Shown in pieces: positions 8,466 through 23,572 of a stretch of 23,776 nt of DNA. The notes beneath the pieces are model-generated. The model saw only the letters and a program-made list of their open reading frames with translations. It searched no databases and had not been told where the DNA came from. Source of the DNA: a virus. Position numbers and translations under genes: made by a program. The stretch is from positions 1 to 23,776 of IMG/VR virus record IMGVR_UViG_3300009103_000157. The stretch is one strand, 5' to 3'. The number at the start of each line of letters is the position of its first letter. Position 1 is the stretch's first letter.

Positions 8466-9083
8466 CTACCTGTTAAACTGGCAGATCCCTGTGTTGCAGC
8501 AGATGATATCACTTATGATACTGTTGACTGCATCATATCGATATATTGGGGAAGATATGTTTTCATTTAGTTGACTTACTGGCTGAACATATGCTCCGTG
8601 TGTAGAAGGGGTAGATACAAAATCCCAACAAAGTAGTTCAAAGTCGTCTTGTACTTCAACTGTGTTACTTTCGTATACTTCTTTAACTGAACCTAAACCT
8701 CTAGATGAGATTCCTACTGTGAGTCCTCTGTTGAATAAAGTTTGGAGTATTCTACCTGATGGAGTGTCTAAAACTTCTATTCTTCCTATAACATCGTCTC
8801 CATCCCACCAAACATCTCTTACTACGTGGCAAGTATTTCCTAAGTTGATTACTTGAGAGTCTGGATGATCTAATTCACCATATGCTCTATTTTGAGCTAT
8901 TGGTCCTTCTTTATAATTTTTAATTTCTCTGTCTAGAATTTTTTTAGGGTAAACTCGGCCGTTTTGGTTTTTTTCTCCGGCCTTTTGAACTACTCCTTCA
9001 ACAATAAGAGGGCCGTTGCCTTTTCCTTCGGCTAATACTTTTTTAAAAACAAATGGTCTATATTCTACTAAAGTTTCTTTCAT
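8466..9083 (-). CDS. Prohead core protease, gp21-type, 205 aa
   Basis: This is a serine protease of the T4 gp21/herpesvirus assemblin type. It matures the prohead by cutting scaffold and capsid precursors. Near the N-terminus are LIVEGVVQKAGEKNQNGRVYP and PKKILDREI. Catalytic His73 lies in GELDHPD, and the serine is in GISSRG (Ser126 or Ser127). The length of 205 aa matches the family (T4 gp21, about 212 aa). The C-terminal IISDIICCNTGIC is a Cys-containing tail like those of phage relatives. The start codon overlaps the stop of the 140-aa gene (TGATG), so translation is probably coupled. The gene sits between gp67/68-position genes and the scaffold, as in T4. Confidence 0.93.
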   Translation of the reverse strand: MKETLVEYRPFVFKKVLAEGKGNGPLIVEGVVQKAGEKNQNGRVYPKKILDREIKNYKEGPIAQNRAYGELDHPDSQVINLGNTCHVVRDVWWDGDDVIGRIEVLDTPSGRILQTLFNRGLTVGISSRGLGSVKEVYESNTVEVQDDFELLCWDFVSTPSTHGAYVQPVSQLNENISSPIYRYDAVNSIISDIICCNTGICQFNR

Positions 9084-9505
9084 CAGTTTCCTAGTTCTTT
9101 AAGTTTATTGTTTAAGTGATTTATTCTTTCAGATATACGAGCTAAACGTTTGTTTGTGCCTTCGAAAAAATTCCCACCACCTAAGTTCATTTCTGTTTTG
9201 AGTTTAAGGTTGTATTCAACTATTTTGTCTACTTCTCTTAAATGTTTTTCAATCTCACGAACTGAATTATTCATTTGTTGGCGAGGATTGGTAACTTTCT
9301 TTTTAAATCTTCTATAGGATTCATTAACTGATTCTTCCCACTTTCTGTTTTTGTTAACTTTTTCCCAATCTCTCATTGAAGTAAAAGCTTTCGTAGTAGC
9401 AATTTGTTGTCCACCAGGTTGAACTAAAGCGCCAGTAGTAGACATTTCGTCTAAATGACCTTGTATTAGTTCTCTAATTAGTTCTCTTAGTTGGCTTGCT
9501 TTCAT
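9083..9505 (-). CDS. Small head protein with N-terminal tag helix, 140 aa (gp68 position)
   Basis: I do not recognise the family. The protein begins MKASQLRELIRELIQGHLDE, the same kind of LRxxIRE helix found on the uncharacterised proteins at the other end of the window. It then has MSTTGALVQPGG and a basic, coiled-coil-prone body (about 45-140), rich in Lys, Arg, Asn and Glu. The position directly before the protease corresponds to T4 gp67/gp68, small prohead core proteins, so a core role is plausible. LDE at residues 18-20 would fit the T4 protease rule (L/I-x-E). It overlaps the 92-aa gene by four bases and the protease gene by one. Confidence 0.8.
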   Translation of the reverse strand: MKASQLRELIRELIQGHLDEMSTTGALVQPGGQQIATTKAFTSMRDWEKVNKNRKWEESVNESYRRFKKKVTNPRQQMNNSVREIEKHLREVDKIVEYNLKLKTEMNLGGGNFFEGTNKRLARISERINHLNNKLKELGN

Positions 9506-12533: not shown

Positions 12534-14117
12534 CTATAGTAACCACCTTAAATCTATGTTATCCTTACCATGTTTCATGGACCAAGGATCTTCTTTAGGT
12601 CTGTTAGTGTATACTGTTTTTGTATCTTGTGTTGATTTTTTTATTCCGTTTAATGTTGCTTTTGTTAAATCTACCCCATGCTGTGCAAATTTAAGTGCTG
12701 TGTCTCTTACGTAACATACTGTCCCTAAACTCATGGTTAAATCATCGTTATATCCTTGTTGAGCTTCTGGTCTTCCATTTTTCCAAATAAAAGTTCTAAT
12801 TTCTTCTAAAGTTCTACTACATTTAATTGTAATAGATTTATCCTTCATATAAGCATCTAGTTTAGCTATTACTAAGGGTCTAGTTCTATTTGACATTGTA
12901 AATCCAGGTGTCATTTTTGTTTTATCTAGTATGTCATATCCTTTAGCTATCCAACTTTCAGCGTCTTGTGTTTTATCGTCTTTTGGAGAATAATATAGAT
13001 TTTGATACCCTCTATCAATTACTTGTTGAAGTACTGCCCACCCAATATTTGCGTTTTCTATTGCTAATAAAGCATTGTTATATTCGGTTGCTACTGATAC
13101 TAATATATTTCCGTAGTCTTTTGTGCCGATTTGGCTTTTAAAAGAAGCCACTTGAGTACAGGAATCGATATCTACTACATGAAAAGCAGAATAATCTTTA
13201 GCATCCCCTCTAGCAACATCTGCTACAACCATATAATTTTTTGAATAATCCGGATATTCCCATATCCAATAATCTCCGCCTATACCTCTTCTTTCTATAG
13301 GTTCACAAACATATGTTTTTTCATAAAATTCAAGTACTTCCGGTGGTATAACACTATTTCCAGAGGTTAAGAAATTACAATCACATTCTTGGGCTGCTAA
13401 TCTTTCTCCTAGTTCTTCATCTTGTTGGTCTCTCCACGCTTGGTCTCTTTCTGGATGTATATTCCAAGGTAATCTTAAAGGAATAAAATCATTTTCTTTT
13501 TCTTGAGCTTTTGCCCAAGTTCTATGGAATAGATTTCCTGTACCGTTTGGTGTGGATAACATTATACATTTACCACCTGTTGCTAGGGTTTGTTGTGCAG
13601 AAGCCCATATAGGGTCTATTTTATTTGGTTCTACAAACGCTGCTTCATCTAAAATCAATAAAGATATGGCTTCAGATCTTGCTGCGTTTTCACTCGCTGC
13701 TATCGCCTTTACCTGCGACCCATTTACCAGCCGTAATGATAATCTGTTGTGTTCAACATTTTTAAGTTTAAGCCAACTAGGTAAATTGTCATACATTACT
13801 CTTACTTTTGTTACCAAGTTTTTGGCTGTTGCTTGAGTAGTAGCAATTACCAATATATTTTTATCTTTATTAAATAACATTAGATGTAGTGCTTGTCCTG
13901 CTGTTAGTGTTGATATTCCTAACTGTCTTGATTTTAATATTATGTTTCTATCATTTTTAGTTAAAATATCTAATACTTTTTCCTGAAAGGGGTAAAGATT
14001 GAATTGGATTCTTCCTCTAGTTGGGTGTTGAATTTGACAATATTTTTTTAAAAAATATGCTGGACTTGAAACACACTTTATGTATTCTTGTTTTATTATT
14101 TTTTTAATCTCACTCAT
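12534..14117 (-). CDS. Terminase large subunit, gp17-type, 527 aa
   Basis: This is the packaging motor ATPase and nuclease. The N-terminal ATPase domain has a Walker A of the atypical phage form SRQLGIST (63-70), Walker B LLILDEAAF (153-161) with the catalytic Glu, and a coupling motif LSTPNG (188-193). The RNase H-like nuclease domain shows Asp300 in VVADVARGD, Glu354 in LAIENANIGW and Asp458/459 in GYNDDL. All three acidic positions are present, so the enzyme looks intact. The length suits T4-type TerL (gp17, 610 aa; marine relatives about 540). The protein ends IDLRWLL. The start overlaps the upstream gene stop (TAATG), so it is coupled to the lysis-like gene. No small terminase subunit was recognised in the window. 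Confidence 0.95.
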   Translation of the reverse strand: MSEIKKIIKQEYIKCVSSPAYFLKKYCQIQHPTRGRIQFNLYPFQEKVLDILTKNDRNIILKSRQLGISTLTAGQALHLMLFNKDKNILVIATTQATAKNLVTKVRVMYDNLPSWLKLKNVEHNRLSLRLVNGSQVKAIAASENAARSEAISLLILDEAAFVEPNKIDPIWASAQQTLATGGKCIMLSTPNGTGNLFHRTWAKAQEKENDFIPLRLPWNIHPERDQAWRDQQDEELGERLAAQECDCNFLTSGNSVIPPEVLEFYEKTYVCEPIERRGIGGDYWIWEYPDYSKNYMVVADVARGDAKDYSAFHVVDIDSCTQVASFKSQIGTKDYGNILVSVATEYNNALLAIENANIGWAVLQQVIDRGYQNLYYSPKDDKTQDAESWIAKGYDILDKTKMTPGFTMSNRTRPLVIAKLDAYMKDKSITIKCSRTLEEIRTFIWKNGRPEAQQGYNDDLTMSLGTVCYVRDTALKFAQHGVDLTKATLNGIKKSTQDTKTVYTNRPKEDPWSMKHGKDNIDLRWLL

Positions 14118-14575
14118 TAAATTAAAGCTATTAATGTTATAATGGGTAATACAATGGACCCTATAAAACCAACTATCTTTAAGGCTTTTTGTTTTCGAAT
14201 TTCTTTCTTTTGTTGTTCTATAACTTGATTTTTAATATCAATTTCTGTGTTTTTATTAGCTAAAATTTGTTCGAAGTTATCTATTATTGATTGTTGGTTT
14301 TCAGATTTTTGAGTGAGTTTGACTATAACATCTTTTTGTAAAGTTATAGTATTTGTGTTTAATGTATCTTTTCCTTTATAGACTGTAAGAAGACTATCAA
14401 CGATTTCATATTCTAAAAGATCGCTTAATACAATTTTAGCATCTTCTAAATTCATTAAAACTAAAGTATCACCGTCACTGTTAATTATCTCCTTGACTTC
14501 TCCTCTTGAGATAGTCTGAGATGTTGCTGGTAATATCATCACTATCCATATTGCTAATGATACTAGGTATTTCAT
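14117..14575 (-). CDS. Signal peptide-coiled coil-C-terminal membrane anchor protein, possible spanin component, 152 aa
   Basis: Residues 1-20 form a signal peptide (MKYLVSLAIWIVMILPATSQ) with a plausible signal peptidase I site after Ser19 and no lipobox Cys. A section with SRGEVKEIINSDGDTLVLM follows. Residues 85-130 are a heptad-like coiled coil ending KKEIRKQK, and residues 132-152 are hydrophobic (KIVGFIGSIVLPIITLIALI). This topology, exported N-terminus, periplasmic coiled coil and C-terminal inner-membrane anchor, resembles unimolecular spanins, except that the lipid anchor is missing. It overlaps the preceding 126-aa membrane gene by 95 bases in another frame, as Rz/Rz1-type genes do. 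A function in disrupting the outer membrane at lysis is inference; another envelope protein is possible. Confidence 0.65.
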   Translation of the reverse strand: MKYLVSLAIWIVMILPATSQTISRGEVKEIINSDGDTLVLMNLEDAKIVLSDLLEYEIVDSLLTVYKGKDTLNTNTITLQKDVIVKLTQKSENQQSIIDNFEQILANKNTEIDIKNQVIEQQKKEIRKQKALKIVGFIGSIVLPIITLIALI

Positions 14576-14861
14576 TTCTTTTTTTCTCTAATTCAGCTAA
14601 TTTGGTTTCAGTTTCTTTAAGGACAACTTTAGTGCTATCTATGGCATAAAGTATAGTATTGATTTCTTTTTGAAGTTTACTATTAATACTATTTATGCTG
14701 TCATTTGATAATAGTAATTGCGTGTTGTGGTCTTTTAAAGCTTTAATTTCATCCTCATAAACATCAATAGGTTTTGAAGGCCTAAAAATTAAACTTAAAA
14801 TAAGAGCAACTGCAAGTATTACTATAAAAATTAACTGTATACTATTTATTATTTTATTCAC
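14481..14861 (-). CDS. Inner-membrane coiled-coil protein, i-spanin-like, 126 aa
   Basis: Residues 8-26 form one N-terminal membrane helix (IQLIFIVILAVALILSLIF). It is followed by a short RPSKPID linker and a long periplasmic coiled coil (about 35-100). The C-terminus is Ser/Asp-rich with a basic LKRRSQG end. This is the topology of Rz-type inner-membrane spanins. The start is a GTG; the next in-frame Met is residue 105, so no ATG alternative exists. Six bases upstream lies an exact ATATTTATAA element overlapping the stop codon of the kinase-like gene. The 95-base overlap with the next gene supports a coupled pair. I see no holin or endolysin nearby, so the lysis role rests on topology. Confidence 0.65.
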   Translation of the reverse strand: MNKIINSIQLIFIVILAVALILSLIFRPSKPIDVYEDEIKALKDHNTQLLLSNDSINSINSKLQKEINTILYAIDSTKVVLKETETKLAELEKKRNEIPSIISNMDSDDITSNISDYLKRRSQGDN

Positions 14862-14867
14862 TGTCTG

Positions 14868-14877
14868 TTATAAATAT
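14868..14877 (-). promoter_or_regulatory. AT-box ATATTTATAA overlapping the kinase-like stop codon
   Basis: An exact decamer on the minus strand. Its last bases form the TAA stop of the P-loop gene, and it lies six bases before the GTG of the i-spanin-like gene. It is followed by CAGA, as at 10636-10645. Confidence 0.55.
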
Positions 14878-15416
14878 ACAGGTGTACTCATTGTAATGGA
14901 TTCCACAACTTGTTGGATTCTCCTTTCGGTTGGTCCTTCTATTCGAATTAGATTTTTTATTCTATGATTGTATGTTTTTATTAAGTTATTTATTGAAAAA
15001 TCAACCAAATCTCTATATTTTTCATCTATTTCTCTCACACCGTTATCTTCAATATCAACCCCTTCAGGTGATACATAAAATATATAATCATATTCTGAAA
15101 TTAAATTTGCTGCGAAATCTCTAAAATAGTCTGCTTCTATTATTGAAACCGACTCAGCCAACCCTGTAAAAGCCATAACATCTATCACAGTTCTGTCTGT
15201 TATAATATTTTCATTCATTAACTCTGCTGCTCTTTCAGCTAAAAATATAGTTTGGCCCTTAAGAGTTGAATCTGTATTTAAGGGTATTCCTAAATCTCTT
15301 AAGTATTGGCTTCTTTCTGTTGCCACTTTATAATCAATAAATTCAGGTAAATTTTTTAATTCATTTACTAATGTAGTTTTACCTACACTCATTGTTCCAC
15401 AAAATCCTATTTTCAT
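14868..15416 (-). CDS. P-loop nucleotide kinase-like protein (AAA_28/NadR type), 182 aa
   Basis: This is a cytoplasmic ATP-binding protein. The Walker A GTMSVGKTT lies at residues 7-15. A TERSQYLRDLGIP segment follows (33-45), then DRTVIDVMAFTG (74-85) as a candidate substrate/Walker B region, and YIFYVSPEGVDIEDNGVR as the core strand plus lid. This layout is that of the AAA_28/NadR-like small kinases, which phosphorylate nucleosides, nicotinamide riboside or similar substrates; the substrate cannot be read here. The stop is six bases from the next gene. The start is four bases after the 82-aa gene, so it belongs to the same unit as the FAD enzyme. It could serve nucleotide or NAD metabolism during infection. 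Confidence 0.7.
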   Translation of the reverse strand: MKIGFCGTMSVGKTTLVNELKNLPEFIDYKVATERSQYLRDLGIPLNTDSTLKGQTIFLAERAAELMNENIITDRTVIDVMAFTGLAESVSIIEADYFRDFAANLISEYDYIFYVSPEGVDIEDNGVREIDEKYRDLVDFSINNLIKTYNHRIKNLIRIEGPTERRIQQVVESITMSTPVYL

Positions 15417-17105: not shown

Positions 17106-18776
17106 TTATAGCTTGCTTATCATTGAAAAATCACCTTCTTCTTGGAATAAATTAATAGAAGTTAATCCTGGATCTGCTCCCCCAGGAGGTTGGATTGGTT
17201 TACTAAGTTTTATTTCTAATTCACCGGCTCCTATATTTGTAATAACCCCTGTTAGGTCATTATAATATTCCATTTCATCTTCAAATTCAAATTCCATCAT
17301 TTTTTCCGGGTTGAATTTTACTCTATCCCCTTCTTTATATTCTGAAGAATGGTCTTCTTTCAAACTATTAATAGCATACAACGATTTAATACCTGCCAAT
17401 TGTTGAAATCTTTCTGTTAGTAATCCTTTTTTAGATTTTTTAGACTTGTTTTCAGCTAAATTTTCTGCATCCCATTTATCATAATCTTCATCAGTAAAGT
17501 CATCATCATATTCAATTTTTTCTTCATCTCCAGGGAATACAACTTCGCCTGGTTCGAACATAAATTCCCAATATTTTTCAATACCTTTCATATTAGGAAA
17601 ATTAACAAAAATCCTATCATTGAATTTATCAACTTCCTTGACAGTGCCTTTCATATTTGGAGTGGGATAATCTATCTTTGAATGTGGTCCTTTTCTTGGC
17701 TTTGGTTCTGTTTTTTTATTAATCTCTATTCTTTCACCTCCTTTAACTACTATTACTTCATCACCTATTGCATAATCAGTAATTTCGTATTTTACATCTC
17801 CAAACCCATAATTGTCTTCAGGGTCTCTAAATCCTTCTTGTAATGTACTTTTAAACTTGGCAAATTCAGCTTTATATGTGTCCATGTCTAAAACTTTGTT
17901 AGTATCACTAATAATACCCATCGCTTTCATTTGATCCATAAAAGCTTTTACTTTCTGTTTTTTAGGATCTTGAGCTTGTGCTTGTGCTTGAGTAGCTTGT
18001 TGTACTACTGGATCATCGTCTGGTGCTAATTCTGGTGCCATTTCTGGAGCATCAAATTCGTCTTCTGGTTTTGGTGCAGCGGGTCTGCCTCTTCTTTTAG
18101 GTTCGGCTGATGTGTCAGGTTCAGCTGATTTTTTAAGATCTTCAGCATAATCAATATATCCTTTATCTCTCATTTTAGCTAAAATAGCATTTACAGGTTG
18201 AACTTTATCAAACCTTCCAATCGCTGAAACTATGTCTTGTGAAGTAAATGTACCTTGTCCTAAAACATCTAACATATTTGTAATGTCTTCTTCTGTGAAT
18301 TCTTTGGCTTTTCTTCCTCTACCACCAGCACCCATTGTTTTAGCTTTAATTCTGTCGTTTACTCTTTGTAAAAATGAACCCGCGTTTGTAAGTCTGTCTG
18401 TAAGTTTGTATGATTGGGCTTTTCGAGCCATTTCATCTAGATCAAAAAACTCACGTAAAGAAAGTGTTTCTTCTTCTAAATCTGCTTCTTCCATTGTGAT
18501 GATTAGATCTGCAAGTTCGTCTGCGTCTGAATCCCCACCCATATCCATTTCTTCAACGTTTTGGAAATGGTCGTCTGCGTCTGAAGAAACCCCTGTTGGG
18601 TCATTTCCAGTGTCACTAATATCTGAGGCTGGTTTTAAAAGTTCGTTGAAAGCTCCCCCCATTTTTGGGTCTTCTAAAGCGTCTTCTAAATCTTCAGTAC
18701 CCGGGTCTACTGTGTCTTCATCTACCATATTTGATAGTGCTTCTTTAACTAGTTGTTTTAATTTTTTATTGTCCAT
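17106..18776 (-). CDS. Tagged AT-hook protein with winged-helix-like and SH3-like parts, 556 aa
   Basis: I do not recognise this as a named family. The N-terminus MDNKKLKQLVKEALSNM is a tag-like helix sharing KQLVKEA with the capsid propeptide end. An acidic stretch (18-105) follows, then residues 160-217 (EEDITNMLDVLGQGTFTSQD to MRDKGYIDY), which read like a winged helix. PKRRGRPAA at 226-234 is a canonical AT-hook for minor-groove DNA binding. Residues 333-414 and 478-527 (YAIGDEVIVV, YKEGDRVKF) look like small SH3-type barrels. GLLTERFQQLAGI (451-463) separates them; it contains an L-T-E site like that of T4 gp23 and resembles the scaffold C-terminus. A DNA-binding internal head protein is my inference. 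The gene ends at a strong terminator. Confidence 0.75.
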   Translation of the reverse strand: MDNKKLKQLVKEALSNMVDEDTVDPGTEDLEDALEDPKMGGAFNELLKPASDISDTGNDPTGVSSDADDHFQNVEEMDMGGDSDADELADLIITMEEADLEEETLSLREFFDLDEMARKAQSYKLTDRLTNAGSFLQRVNDRIKAKTMGAGGRGRKAKEFTEEDITNMLDVLGQGTFTSQDIVSAIGRFDKVQPVNAILAKMRDKGYIDYAEDLKKSAEPDTSAEPKRRGRPAAPKPEDEFDAPEMAPELAPDDDPVVQQATQAQAQAQDPKKQKVKAFMDQMKAMGIISDTNKVLDMDTYKAEFAKFKSTLQEGFRDPEDNYGFGDVKYEITDYAIGDEVIVVKGGERIEINKKTEPKPRKGPHSKIDYPTPNMKGTVKEVDKFNDRIFVNFPNMKGIEKYWEFMFEPGEVVFPGDEEKIEYDDDFTDEDYDKWDAENLAENKSKKSKKGLLTERFQQLAGIKSLYAINSLKEDHSSEYKEGDRVKFNPEKMMEFEFEDEMEYYNDLTGVITNIGAGELEIKLSKPIQPPGGADPGLTSINLFQEEGDFSMISKL

Positions 18777-20104: not shown

Positions 20105-20483
20105 TGTCTTTTTTATTTTTAATATTATCTTCCCAATCTCTTAACATCATATTACCTTTTAAATACGCTTCCATTTCCATTTTTCTCATATGTCCATCTT
20201 CTTGAGCATATCCTGGAGGTGTTTCTCTATCTCCTAAATCACCTCGTTCGTGTTGATGGTGATGTACTAACTCATGAGCTAAAGACCTAAGAATATCCTT
20301 AGGGTGTCTATTTGTTCTGTAAACCACAACCAAACTTTCCTGAGGAGAATAGTAGGCTGTTTTTCCAAGAAGGTTTTGAGAGTTTTCTTCATCGTCTCTA
20401 AGTTTTACTTGAGGTAATTTATCAAATTTGAGCTCTTTGTGGATCTCTTTGACTAAGGATTGTATGGCTTCGGTTAGATCCAT
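20088..20483 (-). CDS. Zinc metallopeptidase (HExxH), 131 aa, with tag-like N-terminus
   Basis: The zinc-binding signature HELVHHHQHE occurs around residues 70-79 (HExxH), preceded by HPKDILRSLA. The later KMEMEAYLKGN would supply a Glu as third ligand on a following helix, as in gluzincins. GKTAYYSPQESLVVVYRTNR forms the expected preceding beta strands. It is short, close to a minimal catalytic domain. The N-terminus MDLTEAIQSLVKEIHKELKF carries an LVKE helix like its neighbours and the capsid propeptide. The start overlaps the stop of the 340-aa gene (TAATG). A role in processing head or host proteins is plausible; the substrate is unknown. Confidence 0.85.
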   Translation of the reverse strand: MDLTEAIQSLVKEIHKELKFDKLPQVKLRDDEENSQNLLGKTAYYSPQESLVVVYRTNRHPKDILRSLAHELVHHHQHERGDLGDRETPPGYAQEDGHMRKMEMEAYLKGNMMLRDWEDNIKNKKDNGRIG

Positions 20484-21505
20484 TATGCTTCTGCTTCCGG
20501 TTCTTCAACTGGCTCCTCTTCGGCTGCCGGTTCTTCTTCAGCGGGTACTTCTTCTTCAGCCCCCATATCTTCTTCACCTTCTTCTCCCGGAGCATCTACA
20601 GGACCCATTAATAAATCATTAATCATATCTTGTGCTTCAGGTAAATTTCTATCATCTGATAAATCTATTTCATTTGCCCCTATTGTTAATAATAATCCAG
20701 TTTCATCAAAATACAGTAAAAAGCTATTTCCGTTTGTTAATACTACTTTTAGTGATTTTGGAGTCGAGTCCATAAAATTAACAAAATCAACGTACCTATC
20801 TATAGGCGTTAATCCTAATCTTTCTAAAGTTTGTTCTGCTTCTCGGGGAATAAATTCGGGTTTGTAGTGGTTTGGAACGAAAGCATCGTCTTCTTGGCCT
20901 TCTTCTTCATCTGCTTCGAGGAGGGACGGAATCATTTCTTTTATGTATTCCTCAAGTTTTTTTTTGGATTCTTTTACATTACCAATCTCTGCCTTTTTTT
21001 CTATCTTATTCTTGTCTATAGCTTTTTGTCTGGCTTTTAATGCTTGTGTCTCTAAGTCACCCGCTTCTATATCTTTTTGTGCTGCTTTTTTTTCTAAATC
21101 ATCGGCTATTTTATCTTCAGCTTCTCCCTCTCTTAACTTGTCTTCTTTTTCTTTAGCTTCTTTATCAAGTGCATCAGCAACTATTTTTGCTTCTAAAGCT
21201 CCTTTTTTCGCTTTTGTAACATCGTCTTCAGTGATTTCGTCTTCTTTGATCTCTTTTTGTTTCTTTTGAATAACTTTCTTAAACTCTTTAGACTTAGATC
21301 CGTCCTTTAAATTTTTAAGAACGTTTTTTAAAGACAAATCATCTTGGTCGTCTGTATCTTCAATAGCGGATTTCATTCTTTCTTTCCAAGCACTAGCTAA
21401 ATCACCTTTTTGTACTCTACCGTCTTTATCTTTATAGTATCCATATTTAGATTCTAAAATGGTCTTTAATTGTTTTCTGATGTGTTCTCTGAGTTGTCTG
21501 CTCAT
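20483..21505 (-). CDS. Tagged, highly charged coiled-coil protein, 340 aa
   Basis: No family is recognised. It begins MSRQLREHIRKQLKTILES, the LRxxIR tag helix. Residues about 70-185 are a Lys/Glu/Ala-rich coiled coil. KKLEEYIKEMIPSLLEADEE (182-201) is a second helix of tag type. Residues about 205-300 are a small globular region (RYVDFVNFMDSTPKSLKVVL, then LTIGANEIDL). The last 40 residues are an acidic Glu/Ala/Pro tail (EEEPAAEEEP and similar). This composition recalls prohead core or internal proteins. It is coupled to the metallopeptidase by a TAATG overlap. Confidence 0.75.
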   Translation of the reverse strand: MSRQLREHIRKQLKTILESKYGYYKDKDGRVQKGDLASAWKERMKSAIEDTDDQDDLSLKNVLKNLKDGSKSKEFKKVIQKKQKEIKEDEITEDDVTKAKKGALEAKIVADALDKEAKEKEDKLREGEAEDKIADDLEKKAAQKDIEAGDLETQALKARQKAIDKNKIEKKAEIGNVKESKKKLEEYIKEMIPSLLEADEEEGQEDDAFVPNHYKPEFIPREAEQTLERLGLTPIDRYVDFVNFMDSTPKSLKVVLTNGNSFLLYFDETGLLLTIGANEIDLSDDRNLPEAQDMINDLLMGPVDAPGEEGEEDMGAEEEVPAEEEPAAEEEPVEEPEAEA

Positions 21506-21550: not shown

Positions 21551-22963
21551 TTAGGTTTTTAGTTTCTGTTTGTAATTGTCAATGTCTTTATCTAATTGAT
21601 GGATTTGGCTTTTTTTCCTACTCCATATGTCTCTAAAGTTGTCTATTTTATTTCCGTAGGATTTGTCTTTGTTTCCTGGTTTAAATGTTTTTCTATGGGC
21701 TTTGAGGTCTGTTTCAATTTTTCTTAACTCTTTTTTGAGTTTTTCCATTTCCTTTTTAGCCTTTTCTAACTTAGGGCCATATTCCATCGATTTTATATTC
21801 TCTTTAATTAACGATTTGATATTTTCTCTAAGTGTTTTTTCCTCACATCCACCACAACCACAGCTACAACTTTTAGCTTCATTAATAGGTAGTTTTCTTT
21901 TAGCTATGGCAGTTAAAGCACTTCTTAATTGTCTTTTCATGTTTCCTGCTTCCCAATCTCCTTCACCATCTTCTTTCCAAAAAAACATATATTTTCTATC
22001 ATCACCTTCTCCTGCTATTTTAATTTTAAATTCGCTGTTTTTTAGTTTTTCAAATGGATATTTTGATTTTTTCCAATCATCTTTTGTTACTGTGTATTCA
22101 GTTTTACCTTCATTTAAAGCATATCCTCTAGGGTTGCTTAATCTCCCTTTAGGACGTCTTTGAAACCCGGTTGCGGCTGCTTTATCATATCGTTTTCTGA
22201 TAAGTTCAGGGTCATTATATTTATTTATCCTGTGTCCTATAGCAATACCGTGAGACCAAGGACTACCTTTTATATATTGTTTAAGCGCTTCTTTTATGTA
22301 GGATTTTAGTGATGATATTTCGTCCAATTCTTCTTCTAAACCTCCTGGAGTGTTTCTACGTTTTCTTCCTGTTACAGCATCGTATTTGTATCCACAAGTG
22401 CCTTCAAGTTGTGAAATATCTTCTGGACGAGTTGACATATCACCTACATCCACTCCTATATCGTCTTGAGAAGCTGAGAGTTCAAATTCATCGTCCCTTT
22501 TTGGCCCTCCTGCTTCTTCAAGAGTTCCATCAGATATTCTTTTTAAGACTTCTTTTTTAATATCATTGAGAATTTTTATTGCTTTTCCGCGGGTAATTTT
22601 CTTATGATCATGATCTACAAAAACATGACTATCTATATTTCCTTGATTGGTGTCAACTGAAAAGGAACCTAAAACATGACCTCCTCTAGCTAATTTTGGA
22701 TCCCATACATAAAACTTTCTACCATGTTCTCCCCACCTGTCAGGAGGACCTGCCCAAAACCCCTCAACTCTACGTCCATTTATTTTATCATCAAAGAAAG
22801 CATTAGATGATTTTGTTCCCCCTTTATGATAAATTAATTGTTCTTCATCGTCTCCTGCTCTTTTAATTTTATCATCATCACTTTGAAGGTTTCCTTGAGA
22901 ATCTACATACATTGCTTCTTCTATTGCTTGTTTAATATATTTTTCAAGTTGGCTTCTTTTCAT
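21551..22963 (-). CDS. Tagged multi-segment protein with a Cys cluster and coiled coil, 470 aa
   Basis: The family is not recognised. It begins MKRSQLEKYIKQAIEEAM, a tag-type helix. Residues about 40-150 form a globular region containing RRVEGFWAGPPDRWGEHGRK and FYVWDPKLARGGHVLG. Similar helices recur inside: LKSYIKEALKQYIKG (219-233) and TLRENIKSLIKENIKSM (377-393). Between them is a basic region, then KYMFFWKEDGEGDWEAG. Residues 366-373 hold four close cysteines (CSCGCGGC), a possible metal site. The C-terminus (395-470) is a Lys/Glu coiled coil. The start is one of the few with a Shine-Dalgarno-like AAGGA, four bases before the ATG. Confidence 0.75.
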   Translation of the reverse strand: MKRSQLEKYIKQAIEEAMYVDSQGNLQSDDDKIKRAGDDEEQLIYHKGGTKSSNAFFDDKINGRRVEGFWAGPPDRWGEHGRKFYVWDPKLARGGHVLGSFSVDTNQGNIDSHVFVDHDHKKITRGKAIKILNDIKKEVLKRISDGTLEEAGGPKRDDEFELSASQDDIGVDVGDMSTRPEDISQLEGTCGYKYDAVTGRKRRNTPGGLEEELDEISSLKSYIKEALKQYIKGSPWSHGIAIGHRINKYNDPELIRKRYDKAAATGFQRRPKGRLSNPRGYALNEGKTEYTVTKDDWKKSKYPFEKLKNSEFKIKIAGEGDDRKYMFFWKEDGEGDWEAGNMKRQLRSALTAIAKRKLPINEAKSCSCGCGGCEEKTLRENIKSLIKENIKSMEYGPKLEKAKKEMEKLKKELRKIETDLKAHRKTFKPGNKDKSYGNKIDNFRDIWSRKKSQIHQLDKDIDNYKQKLKT

Positions 22964-23061
22964 TTTCCTTGTTTTTTTTCTAAATGTCTATATAGTTTCC
23001 AAAACCCCCAAGCGAGACATAAAATTTGTATTTCCAATATGATATCTGCATCAAAATCCAA
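22960..23061 (-). CDS. Possible small membrane protein, 33 aa
   Basis: In the gap between the 173-aa and 470-aa genes, one minus-strand frame stays open and ends in a TGA overlapping the next ATG (ATGA). The peptide has a hydrophobic segment, IQILCLAWGFWKLYR, followed by a charged HLEKKQGK end, like a tiny membrane-anchored protein. The start is uncertain: there is no ATG, only TTG at 23061 or at an internal codon, and no Shine-Dalgarno sequence. A competing ATG frame directly after the previous stop encodes 23 residues without obvious features. It is reported because it fills an otherwise non-coding gap. Confidence 0.3.
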   Translation of the reverse strand: MDFDADIILEIQILCLAWGFWKLYRHLEKKQGK

Positions 23062-23572
23062 TAGGTGTTCGTTTAGGTTGGTCTTTGAAGTTTCCTTCAA
23101 AAATGTTTTTAATTGTTTCTAGTTTTAAATCCATAGATTGTAATACTTTATCCATTTTTTCACCCCCCCTAAGTGTTACATTGTCTAAATTTTGAATGAG
23201 TGATTTTCCCATCCTATTAATATTTTCCATATCTTCCCACATAGTTTGGTTTGCTCCTGGAACTACAGGTCGATCAATGTCGTAAGGGGTTAAATGACCT
23301 GTTTTAGGAACCAAATAATCATAAATATCATTGGCATTTCTGCCTATATTATCTATTAGTGGTTTTTTTCCTTCAAATCTGCTTGTAACAAGGTTAGCCA
23401 ATTCCATGAAAATTCCTGAAGGTTGGTTGCTTCCTTGGGGTATATCAAAAAATTTAGAAAATTCTCTTTTAAAACCACCAGAGTAGTCTGTTTTACCTTT
23501 AAAACCTATTTGTTTTGGGAGTTGGCTTTCAATTTCTTCTCGGATGATATTTCTTAGTTGTTTGATTGTCAT
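23051..23572 (-). CDS. Tagged protein of unknown function, 173 aa
   Basis: No family is recognised. It begins MTIKQLRNIIREEIESQLPK, the clearest example of the LRxxIRE tag helix in this window. IGFKGKTDYSGGFKREFSKF follows, then a mixed helical region with MELANLVTSRFEGKKPLIDN and YDYLVPKTGHLTPYDIDRPV. It ends in a helical section (about 120-165) and a basic KDQPKRTPIGF tail. No membrane segment, Cys cluster or enzyme motif is visible. The ATG lies three bases after an exact AT-box. It heads the run of tagged genes. Confidence 0.75.
   Translation of the reverse strand: MTIKQLRNIIREEIESQLPKQIGFKGKTDYSGGFKREFSKFFDIPQGSNQPSGIFMELANLVTSRFEGKKPLIDNIGRNANDIYDYLVPKTGHLTPYDIDRPVVPGANQTMWEDMENINRMGKSLIQNLDNVTLRGGEKMDKVLQSMDLKLETIKNIFEGNFKDQPKRTPIGF

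Follow-up and report, generated by a model that had tools for sequence, protein, structure and literature searches.

A candidate spanin-like gene pair without a lipobox in a T4-type virus fragment and its relatives

On the minus strand of a 23,776-base virus fragment from IMG/VR (record IMGVR_UViG_3300009103_000157; this whole stretch of DNA is called the window below), which carries T4-type head genes on the same strand, two genes encoding proteins of 126 and 152 amino acids (aa) overlap out of frame. The pair belongs to neither of the two known spanin classes, two-component or unimolecular, since a lipobox was tested for and not found, and it probably encodes a spanin-like complex which, late in infection, helps to disrupt the outer membrane without a lipid anchor. 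We infer the export, cleavage, pairing, membrane placement and function of the two proteins. More tentative is the proposal of a lipid-free spanin class in T4-like phages related to flavobacterial phages, in which the anchor would be the exported C-terminal tail or the N-terminal hairpin of a signal-peptidase-I substrate that acts with an overlapping type II partner. An earlier note on this DNA had left the choice between a different spanin class and an envelope complex unrelated to lysis; the first is favoured here because related pairs adjoin holin and endolysin genes.

Conservation and coding of both overlapping frames

Searches using single sequences and alignments as queries gave 47 loci of the window type, from 33 distinct contigs (some fetched repeatedly) and the window. 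The overlapping partner is kept in 46 of these, the exception (L006) being cut inside the partner; counted by contig, the pair is kept in 32 of the 33 others and the 33rd is cut. The two genes share 95 nt in 39 loci, 98 nt in six and 83 nt in one, in one relative frame only. Gene order, overlap and relative frame are retained in these 46 loci and in 79 of 80 loci of a second type, here called immuto-type after Flavobacterium phage immuto, and two loci outside both counts had no partner in the sequence examined. The frame offset is identical in all 125 loci with a partner, that is, the overlapped out-of-frame gene arrangement listed for two-component spanins.

Selection and column entropy were analysed in the window and 20 window-type loci. 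Equal-length comparisons (156 for the first gene, 111 usable; 130 for the second gene, 94 usable) gave median ratios of non-synonymous to synonymous substitution rates (dN/dS) outside the overlap of 0.18 and 0.20, respectively. Mean column entropy inside the overlap was 0.31, 0.34 and 0.39 bit by codon position (18 sequences), and third-position entropy outside the overlap was 0.91 in the first gene (18 sequences) and 0.85 in the second (16 sequences). As the pair is conserved, dN/dS is about 0.2 and the third-position variability vanishes inside the overlap, both overlapping frames are coding, and the overlapping pair is more than chance. The two proteins with their 95-base out-of-frame overlap, as described in the earlier note, were thereby confirmed at the positions given in Table 1.

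Relatives beside holin and endolysin genes

By its terminase (57%), the closest named phage is the cultured Flavobacterium phage immuto, whose gene order is GH19 (43732-44349), holin (44363-44779), a 67-aa membrane protein, a 279-aa protein and then the pair immuto26A_84/immuto26A_85; the Pfam matches are PF00182 for GH19 (E 2.8e-7) and PF05105 for the holin (E 2.2e-6). The first protein of this pair is a 116-aa membrane/helix protein (45825-46175) overlapped by the second open reading frame (ORF), which is annotated from a TTG at 46129, and a start moved to the ATG at 46087 recovers a signal peptide with FSQ at its end and gives an overlap of 89 nt. The annotated TTG of immuto26A_85 (MW353175.1, 46087-46488, L054) appears to lie 42 nt downstream of the proper start, at the cost of the signal peptide; translated from the ATG, the product is complete and includes the signal peptide, a helix and a hydrophobic tail.

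The immuto second protein had 106 relatives among the IMG/VR stretches matched, 80 of which were kept for the counts. A holin together with GH19 is found in 51 of these 80 contigs and a holin without GH19 in four; the holin ORF adjoins or overlaps the first-gene ORF in 52 of these 55, and the GH19 ORF lies less than 2 kb away in all 51 that have one. Three contigs show the amidase arrangement described below, in 14 the pair is followed by the terminase (and in 11 of these the kinase-like gene is present too) and eight have no holin, GH19, terminase or amidase arrangement in the sequence examined. A holin/endolysin association is thus present in 58 of the 80 immuto-type contigs and in six of the 33 window-type contigs; none was recognised in the window itself, so that of the genes named in the earlier note as companions of a lysis function, those beside most immuto-type relatives were found and those in the window were not.

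In the six window-type contigs (84-198 kb) the pair lies one gene downstream of an Amidase_2-type protein (two genes in G008), and the genes are a ~100-aa membrane protein, a 269-342-aa multi-helix membrane protein, the Amidase_2-type protein, a 178-aa-type protein and the pair, with a PG_binding_1 and Amidase_3 type protein ~3 kb downstream. The Amidase_2-type protein of L012 matches PF01510 (E 6.4e-10), and its counterparts in the other five contigs were assigned by similarity to L012. Multi-helix membrane proteins with polar C-terminal regions and no Pfam match occur near the pair in both lysis contexts (MW353175.1 46550-47695, L012 3635-4573). The ~100-aa membrane protein (L012 3327-3635; counterparts in L029, L030, L032, L033 and L036) lies one gene from the amidase and has in 6/6 contigs a conserved KTC motif at the end of its hydrophobic segment, continuing as TTN, NTN or GTN, which is no usual lipobox.

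When comparing the two types by hhalign, the second-protein families gave a profile-profile probability of 96.4 (E 1.1e-9, 26% identity, 117 columns) and the first-protein families a weaker one of 58, while cross-controls of second against first protein gave 1.7 and 5.5. With individual sequences in place of profiles on the immuto side, the second protein reached a probability of only 23 with the window profile, and a first protein 55 over 32 columns. The two types were never seen together within the searched records, and either of them can stand at the terminase locus or at the amidase locus. With moderate confidence, window-type and immuto-type pairs can be taken as one family. A hidden Markov model (HMM) of the immuto-type second protein found matches in 11 immuto-type records with one copy each (an additional 25-residue signal-peptide match in G018 and in G019 was not counted as a copy), and therefore the same single pair would serve the terminase, amidase and holin loci.

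Absence of a lipobox and alternative roles

Several observations weigh against a spanin-like function. The terminase follows the pair in 27 of the 33 window-type contigs, as in the window (in L035 one additional gene lies between), and a PHROG scan of 23 window proteins gave no lysis family at E <= 0.01; the best Rz-like PHROG matches of the 126-aa protein (phrog_1026, E 0.44; phrog_739, E 0.66) are not significant. The lipobox, a defining feature of spanins, was found in none of the 81 distinct second proteins (29 window-type and 52 immuto-type). Ordinary HMM searches did not cross between the types, the immuto-type second-protein HMM matching 0/3 window-type records and the window-type HMM 0/11 immuto-type records, so the homology rests on the profile-profile comparison and the shared loci. 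The AlphaFold2 (AF2) models are single chains with a low predicted template modelling score (pTM 0.37 for each) and were for that reason used for secondary structure alone. The topology of the 152-aa protein is uncertain, as its Lys/Arg stretch does not lie on the side expected of an ordinary stop-transfer helix in the inner membrane. Finally, in immuto a gene for a 75-aa lipoprotein lies 257 nt upstream of a membrane/helix protein gene, with a transfer RNA gene between, and in immuto and four related contigs these two are possibly a conventional separated spanin pair.

An alternative is an envelope complex, encoded beside the terminase, which is dispensable for lysis and acts, for instance, in superinfection exclusion, in lysis-timing control or as a membrane scaffold on which heads assemble. 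The position of the terminase behind the pair, in 27 of the 33 window-type contigs and in 14 of the 80 immuto-type ones, the missing lipobox and the separate lipoprotein/membrane pair of some immuto-like phages all agree with such a role, but 55 of the 80 immuto-type pairs have a holin nearby (51 also GH19) and three an amidase, and the pair is present in one copy in each of the 11 immuto-type records searched as a whole. We therefore regard this explanation as rather unlikely and keep the spanin-like complex as the preferred one.

The earlier note had stated that neither protein has a lipobox Cys, which holds in a stronger form, as both window proteins are free of Cys, and the absence of a lipobox extended to 81/81 distinct second proteins when the homologues were checked. 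The 152-aa protein accordingly lacks both the lipobox of an o-spanin and the N-terminal lipobox of a unimolecular spanin. All 81 instead have an SQ site after 14-22 residues. Among the window-type second proteins 4/29 contain Cys, three of them at residue 73 and the fourth at residue 10; at least one Cys is present in 48 of the 52 immuto-type proteins. In four of the latter, Cys17 is part of the signal peptide (LNCFSQ), at a position that is Ser or Thr in most relatives, and in 35 of the 52 there is a Cys at residue 46, which might serve a disulfide linkage.

A further alternative is a conventional spanin whose lipobox was missed, the true lipoprotein partner being a third protein, either the KTC protein or one encoded elsewhere. 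In its favour are the KTC Cys that closes the hydrophobic segment in 6/6 amidase-type contigs and the lipoproteins revealed by six-frame lipobox scans: two real lipoproteins in immuto (together with one antisense match), two plausible genes in G009 and one in G007, beside antisense or very short matches. However, the Cys of the KTC motif is preceded by Thr (-1) and Lys (-2), and such residues do not make a usual lipobox. The scan gave no lipobox ORF in G001 (138 kb) or in G010 (65 kb), and in G005 (198 kb) only three short ORFs, each antisense to an ORF of at least 438 aa; the scanned contigs are possibly incomplete. The 75-aa lipoprotein was detected in 5/18 records (immuto and the four related contigs) and its membrane/helix partner strongly in the same five and weakly (E 0.003-0.008) in six others; the lipoprotein was not found in 13/18 records, among them G017, which bears GH19 and the pair, and many of the 13 are fragments. 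The scan recovers lambda Rz1, Bor and T1 gp11 among other matches and misses P2 LysC, so that absence from it is not proof. The search in relatives for a conventional pair elsewhere in the genome, a finding which the earlier note had named as contrary to its view, was thus mixed, with none in G001 and G010 and a candidate in immuto, and a missed lipoprotein partner seems to us quite improbable.

Predicted topology, mechanism and comparison with known spanins

The AF2 alignments had 28 rows for the 152-aa and 24 rows for the 126-aa protein. For the former the model shows a signal helix (2-14), a beta-hairpin (27-31 and 37-41) and a continuous helix reaching almost to the C-terminus, with a mean predicted local distance difference test (pLDDT) of 83.4; at 1.5 A per residue this 109-residue helix would be ~16 nm long if straight. 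The 126-aa protein is predicted as three helices of 24, 73 and 18 residues (mean pLDDT 84.0), a hydrophobic N-terminal one followed by a long polar one, as in i-spanins. Its C-terminal helix is conserved, and in most immuto-type first proteins the C-terminus reads ELE.FF..RY. The membrane helix of the 126-aa protein and the signal peptide and C-terminal hydrophobic helix of the 152-aa protein, as proposed in the earlier note, were borne out as predictions from sequence and AF2, the last in agreement with the C-terminal transmembrane domain of unimolecular spanins. Among solved structures a single weak match was obtained (E 0.14), and Foldseek against viral models gave none at E <= 0.001, as is expected for a single long helix.

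Net charge around the C-terminal hydrophobic segment averages +4.8 before and 0.03 after it in the 29 distinct window-type proteins (+4.2 and +0.9 in the 52 immuto-type proteins), and its best 15-residue hydropathy averages 2.55 in the former. This flanking charge is odd for an inner-membrane stop-transfer helix, and a model with insertion in the outer membrane was kept for that reason. The site ATS/Q of the 152-aa protein appears to be of the Bacteroidota Q-rule, signal-peptidase-I type; a passage of PMC10367356 mentions the Q rule. A host group is suggested only by the SQ site and by the phage in culture that is nearest.

Table 1. Features of the pair and its neighbours in the window
Feature	Position	Strand	Description or basis
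126-aa gene	14481..14861	-	predicted type II membrane protein, i-spanin-like; GTG start
152-aa gene	14117..14575	-	predicted exported protein; ATG start; in o-spanin position
Overlap of 126-aa and 152-aa genes	14481..14575	-	95 nt, out of frame, constrained in both frames
Hydrophobic N-terminal membrane segment, 126-aa protein (~residues 8-26)	14784..14840	-	sequence and AF2 helix 2-25
Long helix, residues 32-104, 126-aa protein, predicted periplasmic	14550..14768	-	AF2
Conserved C-terminal helix 107-124, 126-aa protein, SDDIT..ISDYLKRR	14490..14543	-	AF2 and relatives
Predicted signal peptide, 152-aa protein (residues 1-19, ATS/Q site, no lipobox Cys)	14519..14575	-	sequence; SQ in relatives
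Beta-hairpin, residues 27-41, 152-aa protein	14453..14497	-	AF2
Continuous helix, residues 43-151 (109 residues), 152-aa protein	14123..14449	-	AF2
C-terminal hydrophobic segment, 152-aa protein; Lys/Arg-rich stretch before, no charge after	14120..14176	-	charge count
AAA_28 / thymidylate-kinase-like neighbour	14868..15416	-	library match
T4-type terminase large subunit, neighbour	12534..14117	-	library match

In the proposed mechanism the 126-aa protein would be anchored in the inner membrane by its N-terminus and extend a long helix into the periplasm, while the 152-aa protein would be exported by Sec and cut by signal peptidase I, so that the mature protein presents a small beta-hairpin and the long helix ending in a hydrophobic tail. 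The helices of the two proteins would pair in the periplasm as long as the peptidoglycan is intact, and after its removal by the endolysin the complex may press or fuse the membranes. The hold on the outer membrane could be provided either by the hydrophobic C-terminal tail, inserted into the outer membrane after complete export, or by the N-terminal hairpin touching the outer membrane, with the tail in the inner membrane.

The pair resembles P2 LysB/LysC and lambda Rz/Rz1 in that the first protein is predicted to have type II topology in the inner membrane and a helix in the periplasm, the second gene starts within the first in another frame, and holin or endolysin genes are near in most immuto-type relatives. 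It differs from them in the second protein, which has a signal-peptidase-I-type site, a C-terminal hydrophobic segment and no lipobox, the 152-aa protein being predicted with one helix of the length given above. According to PMC6139136, overlapped genes are the commonest two-component arrangement (228/528) and lysis genes of T4-like phages are not clustered; association with holin or endolysin is usual and not universal. Kongari et al. note that their criteria omit other topologies, for instance an inner-membrane protein of type I that is anchored at its C-terminus (PMC6139136). The pair is a candidate for such an omitted topology, for which sequence families, a corrected start codon and a related pair in a phage in culture are at hand; a lipoprotein-free breach of the outer membrane by phages thereby becomes directly testable, and an annotation rule is provided for lysis genes currently called hypothetical.

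With the unimolecular spanin T1 gp11 the 152-aa protein shares, as predicted, the exported N-terminus, the long periplasmic part and the C-terminal membrane segment; it differs in lacking a lipobox and in having an overlapping partner gene. The 152-aa protein might act alone as a unimolecular-type spanin whose beta-hairpin meets the outer membrane, the 126-aa protein being a regulator, and its signal peptide, central helix and hydrophobic segment fit the T1 gp11 layout save for the lipobox. Yet the 126-aa gene is retained in every window-type locus but the cut one and is under purifying selection, and the positive charges that follow the C-terminal helix in T1 gp11 (RKHEKK) and in a protein of phage FCL-2 are lacking in 28 of the 29 distinct window-type proteins, the Lys/Arg stretch of the 152-aa protein preceding the helix. 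A lone 152-aa spanin is in our view very unlikely, and a complex of both proteins is preferred. The FCL-2 protein (NC_027125.1 11415-11798, L160), annotated as hypothetical, has a lipobox (VSC) and a C-terminal membrane helix ~750 nt past an M15 endolysin and is likely a unimolecular spanin.

The immuto pair has the same two-gene plan, SQ site, lack of a lipobox and, by profile-profile comparison, a homologous second protein, and differs from the window pair by its GH19/holin cassette, internal Cys and a second protein called hypothetical. In Mel-JY01, whose terminase is 53% against that of the window, WWT39302/WWT39303 have the same topology, lie directly upstream of the terminase and lack Cys; unlike in the window the genes abut, and no similarity is detectable (hhalign probability 2.4 and 0.5). 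The first Mel-JY01 protein has a weak Rz-like PHROG match (phrog_7584, E 0.0047). The Mel-JY01 record (PP395634.1, L053 5200-5941) names Microcystis as host, and with its window-like terminase and FSQ-type signal peptide this label may deserve a check.

In 50,697 phage records tblastn found no match to either of the window proteins, and Pfam, PHROGs and NCBIfam gave weak matches at most for either protein, none above the curated Pfam or NCBIfam cut-off. No relative was found in the genome_contigs collection in a pattern-based scan with the immuto-type second-protein alignment, and in the literature searched no Bacteroidota phage was described as having a spanin pair that lacks a lipobox. A scan by topology, which recovers 78 of 130 family loci and misses the window and G001, found no such pair in lambda, T1 or P2, nor in P2559S, P2559Y, B124-14, P12002L, FCL-2 or phi10:1, and a rule for the whole phylum Bacteroidota was rejected. 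Other flavobacterial phages use other plans, FCL-2 as described above and Ingeline and potentially Nekkels with unimolecular spanins according to a passage of PMC8776804, hence the pair is not a phylum-wide feature.

In the window the pair sits between the kinase-like gene and the terminase gene; the GTG start of the 126-aa gene lies 6 nt past the former, and one base is common to the stop of the 152-aa gene and the start of the latter. Elsewhere in the window, five otherwise dissimilar proteins (9083-9505, 17106-18776, 20483-21505, 21551-22963 and 23051-23572) share a similar N-terminal amphipathic stretch of 15-20 aa, of the type M..SQLR.LI.E.I...L.E, which we take to be reminiscent of a shared signal, for head targeting or as a propeptide, of the kind present in internal proteins of T4.

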